NCBI RefSeq assembly: GCF_024345795.1
Contig: NZ_JAGQBU010000019.1
Span: 1 to 55,856 of the forward strand
Reading direction: 5' to 3'
Length of the DNA stretch: 55,856 bases
Source of the DNA: Synechococcus sp. J7-Johnson
GTDB lineage: Bacteria; Cyanobacteriota; Cyanobacteriia; PCC-6307; Cyanobiaceae
Shown: positions 37,282-41,851 of the stretch, piece by piece
Position numbering within the stretch: the first letter of the stretch is position 1
Layout: every line of letters starts with the position of its first letter
The notes under the pieces: generated by a model
What the model was told of the DNA's origin: nothing
The model's database searches: none
Seen by the model: only the letters and a program-made list of their open reading frames with translations
Program-made: the position numbers and the translations under genes

Positions 37282-38289
37282 TCAGTGATAGGCGTTGGGA
37301 ACGAAGAACTGCTCGTTCATCGGCGGGCGATGGTAATCACCGACAGTCTTGCGCGGAGGCAGTTCAATTGGTGCAGGCGTCATGTCCTCGTAGGGGATCT
37401 TGGAGAGCAGATGGCGAATACAGTTGAGGCGGGCCCGGCGCTTGTCATCTGCCTCGACGGTGAACCACGGCGCCTCCGGGATGTTGGTGTGAGCGAACAT
37501 CTGGTCTTTGGCCTTGGAGAACTCCACCCATCGGTCACGTGACTCGAGATCCATCGGTGAAAGCTTCCAGCGACGGGCCGGATCACCCAGCCGGGAGCGG
37601 AAACGGACTTCCTGCTCCTCGTCGCTGACTGAGAACCAGTATTTGAGCAGAACAATTCCCGAACGCACCAGCATGCGCTCGAACTGGGGGGCCGATTGCA
37701 TGAACTCCTCAACCTGAGATTCCGTGCAGAAGCCCATCACCCGCTCCACACCAGCTCGGTTGTACCAGCTGCGATCGAACATGACGATTTCTCCGGCTGC
37801 CGGGAAGTGCTCCACGTAGCGCTGGAAATACCACTGGGTGCGCTGCTGATCCGAGGGCGTACCCAAGGCGACCACATTGCAGCCCCGGGGATTGAGCGGT
37901 TCGGTGATGCGCTTGATCGCACCACCCTTGCCGGCGGCATCACGGCCTTCAAAGAGAATAATCAGGCGAAAGCCAACGTGCTTCACCCAGTACTGCATCT
38001 TCACCAGTTCGACCTGGAGTTTCTCCAGCTCTTTCTCGTAGAACTTGCGGCTCAGTTTGACAGTTTTATCTTCGGGGGGGGCTCCCAGATCGTCTTCACT
38101 TTCCCCGAGCAGATGGGAGGGGTGGTAGCGATCATTCTCACCGTTGGGGGGGAATGGGGAATGGGAACCGGCCACGGCGGGTACCAGGCCGGAGTCTCCA
38201 TGGCTACCTTTCTTTTTCTTGGTCTTGGCGGAGCCGTGCTTGGCGGAGCTGCCCTTTTTACCCTCACTCTTGCTCTTGTCTTTAGCCAT
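37282..38289 (-). CDS. ppk2: Polyphosphate kinase 2
   Basis: About 335 aa. PPK2 transfers phosphate between polyphosphate and nucleotides. It has Walker A ILFEGRDAAGKGGAI, Walker B MFDRSWYNRAGVERVMGF, the lid region QRTQWYFQRYVEHFP and LSPMDLESRDRWVEF. The first ~45 residues are an unusual Lys/Ser-rich tail (KDKSKSEGKKGSSAKHGSAK...), likely disordered. ATG 38289 chosen (MAKDKSKS); upstream ATGs 38334 and 38409 overlap the histidine kinase end. The single-domain architecture points to a short PPK2; class I versus III is not certain. Confidence 0.93.
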   Translation of the reverse strand: MAKDKSKSEGKKGSSAKHGSAKTKKKKGSHGDSGLVPAVAGSHSPFPPNGENDRYHPSHLLGESEDDLGAPPEDKTVKLSRKFYEKELEKLQVELVKMQYWVKHVGFRLIILFEGRDAAGKGGAIKRITEPLNPRGCNVVALGTPSDQQRTQWYFQRYVEHFPAAGEIVMFDRSWYNRAGVERVMGFCTESQVEEFMQSAPQFERMLVRSGIVLLKYWFSVSDEEQEVRFRSRLGDPARRWKLSPMDLESRDRWVEFSKAKDQMFAHTNIPEAPWFTVEADDKRRARLNCIRHLLSKIPYEDMTPAPIELPPRKTVGDYHRPPMNEQFFVPNAYH

Positions 38290-38354: not shown

Positions 38355-39719
38355 TTAAGGACAGATTGTTGAGGCCCTGACACGTCCAGCCACCAGGGAA
38401 TGGCCGCACAGGCTGACGCAGAACGTGCCGGGAGCCTCCTGGGGCGAGAGATCCACCAGGGGCTCACCCCCCAGCCGCAATTCACCGCCATGGGTGCGGG
38501 CCACCCGCTGGGCGATTGCCAGACCCAAGCCGCAGTGGCCGTGGCCGCTGCGAGCCTCGTCAAGGCGCTGGAAGGGCATCAGCGCCTGGGAGCGCTGATT
38601 CTCGGCGATACCCTCCCCCTGATCCCACACCTGTAACTCGAAACCGTCCTGCTGCCAGGCACGCAGCACCAGCCTCACCGGCGGCTGCCCATAGCTGAGG
38701 GCATTATCGATCAGATTGGCCACGGCTCGGCCCAGGGCTATCGGCTGAACCGTGGCCGTGACCGGGTCCAGATCCAGCTCCACCGGCTGGCCGTCATAAC
38801 GGGCGGCCAGCTCCGCCAGCAGCTCCGCGAGGGGCACGCTCACCGCTGGCTCCTCTCCCCCGCCTCCGGCGAAGAGCAGGAACTGACCAGTGATCCGCTC
38901 CAGATCATCGAGATCGGCACCGGCCCGGGCGCTGGCGGAGGCATCCCCCAGCATCGACAGTCGCAGCCGCAGTCGCGTGAGCGGGGTCTTGAGGTCGTGG
39001 GCGATCCCTGCAAGCATCGTGCCTCGCTCCCGTTCACTCTCCTCTAGGCGCAGGATCATGGCGTTGAAGCGCTGAGCCAGGCGGCGCACTTCGGGAGCGC
39101 CCCGCTGGGGCATCGGCTCCGGCTGAGCCTCGAGGCCCACCCGCGCCAGGGCTCTCTCCAGCTGCCGCAGCGGCCGCTGCACCTCCAGCAGCAGGAACAG
39201 TGCCCCCGCCATCAAACTGCCACTCGCCAGCGAGAGGGTGATCAGCAGCGGGTCGGGTGGCCAGCCGAAACGGGGGCGGATGGAGGCATAGAGCCAGACC
39301 GGCTCCAGGGGTGAGGCCAGCTCGATCCAGACACCACGGGCCGCACCATGGTTCGGCACCACCTCGGGGCAGCGGGGCAGACGGCGGCAGAGCTCCAGCT
39401 GGAGCTGGTCGGCCTGCCGCTCGAGGCGGACATCGTCTCCCTGGCCGAGCAGGCCCCAGCTGCGGGGACGCCGCGGTGGCTGGCCAACACCCAGCTGCAG
39501 CCCGCTGAGCTGGGAGACCGTGGCCGGCGGGAAGCGCTCCAACGCCAGCTCCGAAAGCCTCAGGTTCAGGGCCACCTGGGGAGCCATCTGCGCGATCTGG
39601 GCCTGGCCGATCCGGGTACCGAGCAGGACCTGAAGCAGCACCAGGCTGAGGGCCCATCCCCCCAGAAAAAACACCCCGAGACGCAACGACAGGGCAGCTG
39701 GGCGCATCGCGGGGGCCAT
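38355..39719 (-). CDS. EnvZ-type sensor histidine kinase
   Basis: A 454-aa membrane kinase. Order: helix 1 (LGVFFLGGWALSLVLLQVLL, 14-33), extracytoplasmic sensor (~35-155), helix 2 (~159-178), HAMP, HisKA with GIAHDLKTPLTRL (His241), then the ATPase domain with VANLIDNALSYGQP, DQGEGI and HGHCGLGLAIAQRV. It starts 3 bp after the response-regulator stop, so the pair is one operon. The sensor domain has few Cys and no recognised ligand motif. Confidence 0.93.
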   Translation of the reverse strand: MAPAMRPAALSLRLGVFFLGGWALSLVLLQVLLGTRIGQAQIAQMAPQVALNLRLSELALERFPPATVSQLSGLQLGVGQPPRRPRSWGLLGQGDDVRLERQADQLQLELCRRLPRCPEVVPNHGAARGVWIELASPLEPVWLYASIRPRFGWPPDPLLITLSLASGSLMAGALFLLLEVQRPLRQLERALARVGLEAQPEPMPQRGAPEVRRLAQRFNAMILRLEESERERGTMLAGIAHDLKTPLTRLRLRLSMLGDASASARAGADLDDLERITGQFLLFAGGGGEEPAVSVPLAELLAELAARYDGQPVELDLDPVTATVQPIALGRAVANLIDNALSYGQPPVRLVLRAWQQDGFELQVWDQGEGIAENQRSQALMPFQRLDEARSGHGHCGLGLAIAQRVARTHGGELRLGGEPLVDLSPQEAPGTFCVSLCGHSLVAGRVRASTICP

Positions 39720-39722
39720 GGC

Positions 39723-40448
39723 TCAGCGGTTGCGGGGCTGGCCGTCAGGGACAAAGACGTAGCCATAGCCCCAGACCGTCTGGAGGTAGCGCGGCCGGCT
39801 CGGATCGGGCTCCACCAGCCGCCTCACCCGCGACACCTGCACGTCCATGCTGCGGGTGTCGGTGTCGCTGGCGGGACCCCGGGCCAGCTCGATCAGCCGC
39901 TCCCGCGAAAGGGGGCGGTGCGGATGCTGCACGAAGGCGGCCAGCAGGCTGAATTCACCGCTGGTGATCGTCACCGCCTGATTCTGCCGCTCCAGCGTGC
40001 GGGCGGAGAGATCCAGCACGTTGTCGCCGAACTGCACCAGCTCGCCATCGGCGAGGGGAGTGCCGGCCGGCAGGGAACCGCGGCGGCGCAGCACCGCTTC
40101 GATGCGGGCCATCAGCTCCCGGGGCAGGAACGGCTTGGCCAGATAGTCGTCGGCGCCCTGTTCAAGGCCGATGATCCGGTCAACCGCCTCGCCCCGGGCC
40201 GTGAGCATCACGATGGGCAGATCGTCGCTGGCGTCGCGCAGGCGACGCAGCAGGGTGAGGCCGTCGTCGCCCGGCATCATCAGATCAAGCACGACCAGAT
40301 CGGGACGCTGGAACTCCAGCCGGGCCATCAGCTGGCGGCCGTCGGTGAGGCAGCGCACCTCATAGCCCTGGTCGGTCAGGTATGTACCCAACAACTGGCG
40401 CAATTCTGGGTCGTCATCGACGACCCAGATCGTGTGGGTTCGGCTCAA
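39723..40448 (-). CDS. OmpR/PhoB-family response regulator
   Basis: About 241 aa. The receiver domain has VVDDDPELRQLL (acidic pocket), LVVLDLMMPGDDG (phospho-Asp55), MLTARG and AKPFLPREL. The winged-helix DNA-binding domain ends in RVRRLVEPDPSRPRYLQTVW and GYGYVFVPDG. No ATG fits the N-terminus: TTG 40448 gives a family-like start, GTG 40520 is an alternative, and ATG 40619 would add a non-conserved 57-residue tail. Partner of the EnvZ-type kinase; divergent from the EF-hand gene. Confidence 0.9.
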   Translation of the reverse strand: MSRTHTIWVVDDDPELRQLLGTYLTDQGYEVRCLTDGRQLMARLEFQRPDLVVLDLMMPGDDGLTLLRRLRDASDDLPIVMLTARGEAVDRIIGLEQGADDYLAKPFLPRELMARIEAVLRRRGSLPAGTPLADGELVQFGDNVLDLSARTLERQNQAVTITSGEFSLLAAFVQHPHRPLSRERLIELARGPASDTDTRSMDVQVSRVRRLVEPDPSRPRYLQTVWGYGYVFVPDGQPRNR

Positions 40449-40517
40449 GGCGGGGGCCGCAGCTGGCCTGACTGTATGGAGCGGAACCCACCGCGCCCAG
40501 GGGCAGACCCCACGGGG

Positions 40518-40533
40518 CACCTTGCCAAAGGTG
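40518..40533. promoter_or_regulatory. Inverted repeat CACCTT-N4-AAGGTG
   Basis: CACCTT (40518-40523) GCCA AAGGTG (40528-40533), in the spacer between the response-regulator gene and the EF-hand gene. A related repeat occurs about 93 bp away (40611). Possible operator; nothing in the sequence identifies the binding protein. Confidence 0.4.
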
Positions 40534-40610
40534 ACTGCCCGGCCCTGCAGACAGGTCCGGTCATGTCTTGGCCCCTGAAGCCGCCGCCGCAGAGGCTGAC
40601 CTGGCCCGCT

Positions 40611-40625
40611 CACCTCCATAAGGTG
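40611..40625. promoter_or_regulatory. Inverted repeat CACCT-N5-AGGTG
   Basis: CACCT (40611-40615) CCATA AGGTG (40621-40625), ending 6 bp before the EF-hand ATG. AAGGTG could equally serve as its ribosome-binding site, in which case the repeat could form a small hairpin that masks it. Confidence 0.4.
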
Positions 40626-40631
40626 ATTGCC

Positions 40632-41141
40632 ATGGCGTCGCCCACCAGCTCCAGAACGAGGCCCAACCTGGCTCAGGGCAGCAGCACAAGCCGCAGAGGG
40701 TTATTGATGCTGGCCTCCCTGCTGCTGCTCAGCCAGGCTGGGCCAGGCCTCGCCCAGGACGCCCGCTCGCTGCAGCTGTACCACCAGCAGAAGCAGGCCT
40801 GGTTCGAGCGGCTGGACCGCAACCGCGACGGCAGAGTGACTCCCCAGGAAAGCCGGGGCCAGCCCTATCTGGAAACCAATTTTCAGCGGCTGGATCAGCG
40901 GGGCCGGGGCTACCTGCTGCCCACCGACCTGAGTCCCCGCCAGCCGGCCTTCCTGGGGGTGAGGCTGCATACGGTGTTCACCCAGGCCGACCGCAACGGT
41001 GACGGCCAGCTCAGCCGCAAAGAGGCACGTTCCTTTCCCTGGCTGAACCGGCGGTTCTCCAAGATCGACCTGAACAGCAACGGTTCCATCAGCCTGCAGG
41101 AATTATGGGAGTCGCGGCGGTCGCTGGCGCCCCGGCCCTGA
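40632..41141 (+). CDS. Exported EF-hand calcium-binding protein
   Basis: A 169-aa protein. The N-terminus TSRRGLLMLASLLLLSQAGP is a signal peptide with a twin-arginine-like SRRGLL, cleaved near GLAQ (~42). Four EF-hand loops follow: DRNRDGRVTPQE (62-73), the degenerate DQRGRGYLLPTD (88-99), DRNGDGQLSRKE (120-131) and DLNSNGSISLQE (146-157). Likely a periplasmic or lumenal Ca-binding protein. It is divergent from the two-component operon, 183 bp apart. A much longer upstream frame (to 39348) is a shadow. Confidence 0.85.
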   Translation: MASPTSSRTRPNLAQGSSTSRRGLLMLASLLLLSQAGPGLAQDARSLQLYHQQKQAWFERLDRNRDGRVTPQESRGQPYLETNFQRLDQRGRGYLLPTDLSPRQPAFLGVRLHTVFTQADRNGDGQLSRKEARSFPWLNRRFSKIDLNSNGSISLQELWESRRSLAPRP

Positions 41142-41143
41142 GC

Positions 41144-41596
41144 TCAGCGCTCGGGGCGATCCGGCGGCCGGATACGCACCACCGACCAGACGACTCGAGC
41201 CAGACCCGCCGGCAGCGCCATAACCCCGCCCAGCCCCGGCATGGCCAGGCGCAGCAGGCGGAACGCCCCGTTGATCAGCAACAGCAGTGCGGCGATCGCC
41301 AGCCCCAGCAGCAGCAACACCCCAAAAGCCTGCAGCAGGCCCAGCAACAGGCTGATCAGACCCATGCCGATCTGGCTCAGCCCCCGGATCAGGGCGCTGA
41401 TCACCTTGCTGATCACCAGCAGCGAATCCAGGCGGTTGGGGAGCTGCATCAGCAGCAGCAGCAGCCCCGTTCCCGCCGCCCCGTTCAGCAGAGCCAGGCC
41501 CCCCTCCCGCCAGGCCGATCCACTCCGCCGCTGGCGCGAGAACACCTTGCGAGGCAACGGGATTTTGCGGCCTGGATCGGGCAGGTGAGTCTTCAT
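41144..41596 (-). CDS. Membrane protein of unknown function (150 aa)
   Basis: A basic N-terminus (RKIPLPRKVFSRQRR) and two long hydrophobic regions (SLLLGLLQAFGVLLLLGLAI and LLLLINGAFRLLRLAMPGL), plus a weaker one at residues 36-50. C-terminus RIRPPDRPER. No family recognised. Its stop nearly touches the convergent EF-hand gene. Upstream on the same strand is the 80-aa unknown. Confidence 0.55.
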   Translation of the reverse strand: MKTHLPDPGRKIPLPRKVFSRQRRSGSAWREGGLALLNGAAGTGLLLLLMQLPNRLDSLLVISKVISALIRGLSQIGMGLISLLLGLLQAFGVLLLLGLAIAALLLLINGAFRLLRLAMPGLGGVMALPAGLARVVWSVVRIRPPDRPER

Positions 41597-41608
41597 GGCG
41601 GCGGCTTC

Positions 41609-41851
41609 TCAATCGAGCCTGTAGCCCGCGCCGCGCATCCAACGCTCGAACTCCAGCAGCACCAGTTCATTGGGGCAATCCACCAGGCTGAGACCCGCCA
41701 CGGTGCAATCCCCCTGTCCGCCGTGGTGGAGAGAGAGGTGAAAATCCTTGCCGCTGAGGCCACAGACCTCGGGATCACTGCGCACGACCACATCCAGGGA
41801 GGCCCCCAGCCGATTCACCCGTCGGCGCAGTTCAGACCAGCTGGTGGTCAT
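41609..41851 (-). CDS. Small conserved cyanobacterial protein (80 aa)
   Basis: An 80-aa soluble protein; MTTSWSELRRRVNRLGASLD leads to two Cys (EVCGLSG, GDCTVAG) and ends VLLEFERWMRGAGYRLD. I recall similar short proteins in cyanobacteria but know no function. It is 12 bp upstream of the membrane-protein gene and likely co-transcribed with it. Confidence 0.6.
   Translation of the reverse strand: MTTSWSELRRRVNRLGASLDVVVRSDPEVCGLSGKDFHLSLHHGGQGDCTVAGLSLVDCPNELVLLEFERWMRGAGYRLD

Follow-up and report, generated by a model that had tools for sequence, protein, structure and literature searches.

An OmpR-type two-component system divergent from an EF-hand protein gene in picocyanobacteria: conservation of the pair and a candidate operator in the shared spacer

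Genes of the locus

The window, that is, the whole stretch of 55,856 nucleotides analysed here, is a contig (NZ_JAGQBU010000019.1) of the 3.0-Mb assembly of Synechococcus sp. J7-Johnson. The genes considered lie as follows:

37282–38289, minus strand: PPK2 polyphosphate kinase (PPK2, 5.4e-104), start uncertain, downstream of the histidine kinase
38355–39719, minus strand: membrane histidine kinase with periplasmic domain, HAMP, HisKA and HATPase_c (Pfam)
39723–40448, minus strand: OmpR-type response regulator (receiver and winged helix), TTG start at 40448, stop at 39723
40632–41141, plus strand: EF-hand protein of 169 aa, with three canonical loops and one degenerate loop (Pfam, loop positions)

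The regulator has the architecture of the OmpR subfamily (Response_reg, 1.3e-32; Trans_reg_C, 3.9e-21), and against the NCBIfam OmpR equivalog NF007005 it scores 326.3 bits, slightly below the cut-off of 331; the regulators of relatives fall on both sides of that line, L081 and L115 above it, L077 and L098 narrowly below. The kinase gene is separated from it by 3 bp and lies just beyond the interval of the first-pass annotation, which had described a two-component operon divergent from the EF-hand gene; both regulator and kinase are confirmed. Among the families listed, the kinase scores highest against the NCBIfam EnvZ equivalog NF007004, at 172.4 bits far below the cut-off of 415. Its structure model has a mean pLDDT of 78.6, and the matches listed in a whole-model fold comparison come from the catalytic domains.

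The divergent gene had been described as encoding an exported protein with four EF-hand loops. Three of these are canonical, beginning at residues 62, 120, and 146, and the protein matches Pfam EF-hand_5 over three stretches (62.6 bits against a cut-off of 25.9); the fourth, at residue 88, is degenerate. The N-terminus is signal-like, with a hydrophobic stretch followed by “...GLAQDAR,” and judged from this sequence the protein is probably exported. The structure model (mean pLDDT 79.1) gives calmodulin-like matches of a merely generic kind, with Z of 8.0–8.9 among those listed. Two NCBIfam matches, XopAW and deiodinase, score far below their cut-offs and are read as general EF-hand similarity.

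Conservation of the gene pair

The pairing of regulator and EF-hand gene is genuine, and its deep conservation extends over many picocyanobacteria of fresh and marine waters. A search with the EF-hand protein (E ≤ 0.001) gave a match in 36 of 149 relatives, one per genome, and in 35 of them the gene is divergent from the regulator; in the 36th (G010) it lies at a contig end and is not evaluable. The two genes are thus neighbours at all 35 evaluable loci, as the reading of the first-pass annotation required. In 30 EF-bearing loci, the window included, the regulator is divergent and adjoining in every case, with 77–100% identity; the same layout recurs in five of six further loci, the contig of G010 beginning at the EF-hand gene itself. 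By regulator, the nearest named relatives among the matches listed are Synechococcus sp. 1G10, WH 5701, and CS-1329, and Cyanobium sp. CZS48M. In a tree of 81 rows, the 30 cyanobacterial regulators that face EF-hand genes fall into a single clade (SH-aLRT 98), with the other cyanobacterial regulators outside it.

The two-component system is more widespread than its partner: the regulator is found in 44 of the 149 relatives (E ≤ 1e-60) and the kinase in 46 (E ≤ 1e-35), and nine genomes have a regulator and no EF-hand match. There the regulator follows the gene for a 263-aa predicted exported protein (for which, in L053, there is no Pfam family), follows a cysK-like or other gene, or faces a peroxidase-type gene or what is left of one, these names being taken from sequence. 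Since at the evaluable loci of this set the EF-hand gene occurs only with the system, and the system occurs also without the EF-hand gene, the protein looks like an output or accessory of the system rather than its essential sensor.

Palindromes in the spacer

Seven features between or around the two starts bear on how the pair may be regulated (palindromes carry no strand):

40471–40480, minus strand: regulator promoter −10 region TCCATACAGT, hexamer TACAGT
40518–40533: palindrome 1, CACCTTGCCAAAGGTG, kept in 1 of 59 spacers
40531–40535, minus strand: GTCAC facing the regulator, candidate autoregulatory half-site, 57 bp before the CATA of the regulator −10
40550–40569, plus strand: operator-like box GACAGGTCCGGTCATGTCTT, GATCYGGTCACAG-like, facing the EF-hand gene (matrix score, fixed spacing)
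40611–40625: palindrome 2, CACCTCCATAAGGTG, in 3 of 59 spacers from two genomes, overlapping the EF-hand −10
40615–40624, plus strand: EF-hand promoter −10 region TCCATAAGGT, with hexamer TAAGGT at 40619–40624, 7 nt before the ATG
40621–40625: AGGTG, considered as a Shine-Dalgarno sequence; less likely, as it overlaps the conserved −10 hexamer 6–7 nt before the ATG

The first-pass annotation had taken the paired CACCT/AGGTG repeats to be the binding sites of the regulator. Both strings are present in the DNA exactly as it gave them, and in a single sequence two such palindromes within 100 bp are more than chance would provide, because CACCT-N4-6-AGGTG occurs 3 times in the whole window where 0.16 are expected; the longer form CACCTT-N4-AAGGTG has 3 places in the 3.0-Mb assembly, and its reversed-pattern control has 0. 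Against this stand the relatives, compared over 59 homologous spacers, each at most about 260 bp long (50 after dereplication). Palindrome 1 is absent from the other 58 of the 59, and palindrome 2 is found in the window and in 1G10 (fetched twice). Even within the genus, 8 of 9 members lack palindrome 1 and 7 of 9 lack palindrome 2; the pieces that all nine keep are CTTGCCAAAG[GA]TGACT and TCCATA[AG]GGTG, the left arms being variable. The repeats were to be present in relatives that keep the gene pair, and they are absent there; the palindromes therefore fail as operators, and we regard that role for them as barely credible.

A conserved box in fixed register with the EF-hand promoter

What is conserved in the spacer is a different element. 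A matrix built from 42 sites, with the window and two near relatives left out, ranks 40550–40569 first in the window at 18.8 bits, the next site reaching 12.2; the consensus over 45 sites is approximately GACGGATCCGGTCACAGCTT. GTCAY lies 56/57 or 45–47 bp before the CATA of the EF-hand −10 in all 45 spacers with such a −10, where first-order shuffles give 2.5, a comparison in which the allowed distances were set after viewing the same spacers and the relatives are not independent. Additional GTCAY boxes stand 35/36 bp (14 spacers) and 24/25 bp (10 spacers) before the −10, and by this spacing the EF-facing boxes are placed on one face of the helix, in fixed phase to the −10. Part of the 50 dereplicated cyanobacterial spacers have GTCAY/GACAT pairs at steps of 11 bp (12 spacers), 21 bp (14), and 32 bp (14), while the window has a single clear EF-facing box and no repeat array. 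Over the dereplicated set, GTCA[CT] is found in 47 of 50 spacers against 17.4 expected from shuffling, GTCACA in 33 against 2.5, and TCCATA in 40 against 1.6.

The −10 caller found an EF-hand −10 in 45 of the 50 spacers and none in L025, L041, L045, L057, and L064. L025 and L057 do carry GTCAC; the spacers of L041 and L045, which are Synechococcus lacustris-like, have no GTCAY box; and L064 is not evaluable, its EF-hand gene lying beyond the 260 bp analysed. In all 45 the hexamer TANNNT is followed by the ATG after 6 nt (37 spacers) or 7 nt (8, the window included), counting L005 by its second ATG and including L062, L063, and L065, which encode fewer than 100 aa. As background, TANNNT is found at such a distance in 6 of 372 long frames (at least 200 aa, first ATG taken as start) from the window and the named loci L034–L076. 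With the −10 only 6–7 nt before the ATG, a leaderless EF-hand mRNA is predicted. Leaderless mRNAs are reported as known but few in cyanobacteria (PMC6091082, PMC5607370), with 19 such start sites in UTEX 2973 (PMC6091082) and a likely presence in Prochlorococcus MED4 (PMC5607370), and the gene would offer a clean test case for leaderless expression of an exported protein.

In the nine genomes of the genus, GGTCAY-N40-52-CCATANNNT has 24 matches. Nine of these fall at the EF-hand promoter, a single match in each genome; among the other 15 are two pairs alike, from two genomes each, and the reversed-pattern control gives 19 matches. Because the EF-hand promoter is the one match shared by 9 of 9 genomes, the local target is the sole recurrent one at that stringency. 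Taken with the divergent layout, these patterns make it probable, in our view, that the regulator activates the EF-hand gene through the conserved box.

On the other side of the spacer, TATGGA, which marks the regulator −10, is found in 32 of the 50 dereplicated spacers against 1.6 expected. The regulator-facing GTCAC of the window is overlapped by palindrome 1. An inverted GTCAY lies 55–57 bp from the CATA of the regulator −10 in 10 spacers and at 66 and 68 bp in L013 and L014, all 12 belonging to the window's genus or its closest allies; the spacing of such boxes to the regulator −10 is more variable than that to the EF-hand −10 (41–42, 62–63, 73–74, 84–86 bp, and others). The EF-facing matrix has no good match at 40531–40535 in the window, which makes the autoregulatory site a weak claim. 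Of the earlier proposal that the regulator controls both the EF-hand gene and itself, the first half thus probably stands, by way of a different site, and the second is the weaker, with an inverted GTCAY in 12 spacers and no matrix match: in the window's genus the regulator may act on its own promoter through this second, inverted box.

Loci with a peroxidase partner and ownership of the box

In a related regulator lineage the divergent gene encodes an animal-type haem peroxidase (Pfam, 435–441 bits) in all three loci tested (L073, L075, and L091). Its C-terminal RTX calcium-binding repeat is marginal, above the Pfam cut-off in two of the three (23.4 against 23; the third, 16.9). Upstream of the peroxidase gene the same three loci have GTCAC/GACAC pairs 21 bp apart, the step found also in part of the EF-hand spacers. 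L074, which groups with this lineage, lacks the box pair, and it has no long frame for a peroxidase. The position of the peroxidase group in the tree is unsure because of a very long branch (L091) and many open forks. In L155 (G030), L156 (G054), L158 (G075), and L154 (G026) the peroxidase is less clear, the gene being short or cut by the end of the contig or stretch. In 11 further EF-less cyanobacterial loci, GTCACA is absent from all 11 upstream regions, searched within 1,050 bp (797 in L071).

This distribution bears on whether the box might be the site of a different regulator, such as a Crp-type protein. In favour of that, TCACA is similar to a Crp half-site, and one box of L091 reads GTCACA-G-TGTGAC, as does one of G030. 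The TGTGA partner is, however, absent from the 45-site matrix, boxes at helical steps fit the binding mode of the OmpR family, and the boxes track the divergent target of the regulator, being absent at 11 of 11 loci that have neither an EF-hand nor a peroxidase partner. We consider a Crp-type owner quite improbable and continue with the OmpR-type regulator as the protein that would bind the box.

Proteobacterial relatives

The best 80 regulator loci in named genomes comprise 44 cyanobacterial and 36 proteobacterial ones. A quick 81-row tree places the cyanobacterial regulators within proteobacterial OmpR-type proteins, which suggests transfer from proteobacteria; the tree has several long branches, and no single branch separates the chosen outgroup from the rest.

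A similar pairing is found in proteobacteria. The Novimethylophilus EF-hand protein as query has a match in 70 of 100 relatives, and an OmpR-type regulator, 53–61% identical, is divergent from the EF-hand gene in 29 of 31 proteobacterial loci, mostly those of Novimethylophilus relatives, with Methylobacillus and a gammaproteobacterial MAG among the 31; at L117 and L119 there is no such divergent regulator. The layout is the same as in the window, but the three sampled regulators do not come out in the tree as sisters of the EF-facing clade of cyanobacteria, and the boxes differ, being T[TA]ACA repeats about 10 bp apart. These are found 9–12 bp apart in 25 of the 29 spacers, exactly 10 bp in 24 of the 25 pairs (0.4 expected), and since they stand closer to the regulator than to the EF-hand gene, control of the EF-hand gene is not indicated there. 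We stop short of calling the EF-hand proteins of cyanobacteria and proteobacteria orthologous, because their best similarity is confined to 53–57 residues of EF-hand and the tree does not join the regulators.

In Chromobacteriaceae (L098, L100, and L101), OmpR-type relatives are divergent from small, probably exported proteins. Two of these were tested: that of L101 matches Metal_resist below the cut-off, and that of L098 matches FlxA just above it.

Signal of the kinase and the calcium question

A PhoQ-like divalent-cation sensor has an acidic periplasmic patch. The periplasmic segment of the kinase (residues ~33–157) has 11 D/E against 14 K/R and hence no acidic excess, and the best-scoring named families of both regulator and kinase, OmpR and EnvZ, are osmolarity and envelope systems. 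The calcium or divalent-cation response that the first-pass annotation had suggested is not borne out by either observation, and calcium sensing by the system stays a live but conjectural idea. The calcium theme gets slight indirect support from the related lineage that faces a peroxidase with a marginal RTX repeat.

The same family scores favour a response to salinity, osmotic, or envelope change, with calcium merely stabilizing or buffering the output protein. A rise of envZ at low salinity is reported in Synechococcus LTW-R (PMC7771541), and envZ and ompR are reported in Ca. Synechococcus feldmannii and free-living relatives (PMC6506613), both being likenesses by gene name only. Such a response leaves unexplained why a related lineage faces a protein with a marginal calcium-binding repeat, and we give it a little less than an even chance.

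Two further possibilities give calcium a more active part. In the first, the EF-hand protein would be a periplasmic accessory modulator of the kinase, akin to CpxP of Escherichia coli; produced when the system is activated, it would report calcium to the kinase and damp or sharpen the signal. The gene cpxP is divergent from cpxRA; CpxP is not known to be an EF-hand protein. The divergent layout and signal-like N-terminus at our locus are as in cpxP-cpxRA, and EF-hand homologues occur beside the system only, at 35 of 35 evaluable loci in the set. The most induced promoter of the Cpx system is reported to be that of the periplasmic accessory protein (PMC4817254, PMC4160245), and CpxP is reported to interact with CpxA (PMC4160245). 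The families differ, however: for the window's protein Pfam at E ≤ 0.001 gives EF-hand families alone, and CpxP/Spy is not found. Furthermore, the periplasmic residues C111, C117, W131, and W142 are invariant in 30 aligned kinases whether EF-facing or not, so they are kept in EF-less lineages as well, and the persistence of regulator and kinase without an EF-hand gene implies that the protein is dispensable for the system. Modulation of this kind is, we believe, doubtful.

The second is a calcium-gated feedback loop, in which the exported EF-hand protein, expressed from a leaderless mRNA under the divergent OmpR-type system, would inform the kinase in turn of calcium in the periplasm or at the surface. 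Its appeal is that such regulators are repeatedly paired with calcium-binding exported proteins: EF-hand proteins in picocyanobacteria and in Novimethylophilus relatives, and a peroxidase with a possible RTX repeat. On present evidence we think the complete loop unlikely.

Proposed mechanism and relation to known systems

The gene arrangement, its conservation, and the geometry of box and promoter can be read from the aligned loci; from them we infer binding of the box, activation, a leaderless start, export, and calcium binding, in the following order. The kinase would sense an envelope, osmotic, or ionic cue and phosphorylate the OmpR-type regulator, which would bind the GATCYGGTCACAG-like box, in many relatives together with further GTCAY boxes at steps of ~10.5 or 21 bp. 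Once bound, the regulator would activate the EF-hand gene, with the mRNA beginning at or next to the ATG. The exported product would then bind calcium through its EF-hands, either in the periplasm or on the cell surface, and serve as an effector, a buffer, or a modulator. In the window's genus the regulator may also reach its own promoter by way of the second, inverted box.

BfmR of Pseudomonas aeruginosa belongs to the OmpR family, and CSE of Anabaena is a small, cytosolic protein with two EF-hands. BfmR is reported to bind the efhP promoter and activate it 11,268-fold (PMC8025907), and EfhP to bind calcium at 13.7 μM (PMC9132961). What parallels the circuit proposed here is that a two-component regulator strongly drives an EF-hand gene (PA4107) close to its own operon, as judged by locus number (PMC8025907). 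As the differences, efhP heads a separate operon, pa4107-4106-4105, and is not directly divergent from bfmR, and EfhP has two EF-hands; the two pairs are compared as analogues. A comparable activation in the window is consistent with the conserved promoter geometry, a correspondence at the level of sequence. CSE is reported as a cyanobacterial calcium-binding protein (PMC7065334), but both protein and context are unlike those of the window's EF-hand gene. The window's regulator shares its response-regulator architecture with OmpR, as the 326.3 bits against the OmpR model reflect, whereas the pair as a whole falls below the curated OmpR and EnvZ cut-offs and has an EF-hand partner. In the literature, as far as its partial coverage extends, we found nothing joining an EF-hand with OmpR and EnvZ, or with OmpR in Synechococcus two-component systems.

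To our knowledge, few calcium-signalling circuits have been defined in bacteria. With a conserved regulator/EF-hand pair whose operator and promoter can be predicted, this locus allows one to ask whether picocyanobacteria, which are abundant, sense calcium or ions at the envelope.

Neighbouring genes and variant loci

The PPK2 gene follows the kinase in 14 of the 29 named EF-bearing loci, where several of the rest do not extend far enough to judge, and it is possibly a member of the operon with regulator and kinase. Two small genes (41147–41596 and 41612–41851), for which there is no Pfam family, are convergent with the EF-hand gene; the 80-aa neighbour within 41147–41851 is 68–100% identical in the relatives where it is present.

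Some loci depart from the common form. In one Cyanobium-type group (L164, L165, L167, L062, L063, and L065) the EF-hand protein is short, 87–98 aa, and comprises the N-terminal EF-hand region only. In L025 (G061, 527–1248) a frameshift or an error of sequencing divides the regulator gene into two frames that overlap. Finally, in L039, L042, and L046 the kinase is set apart from the regulator, by ~1.6, 3.7, and 1.6 kb in the downstream direction, respectively, as if by insertion between the two genes.
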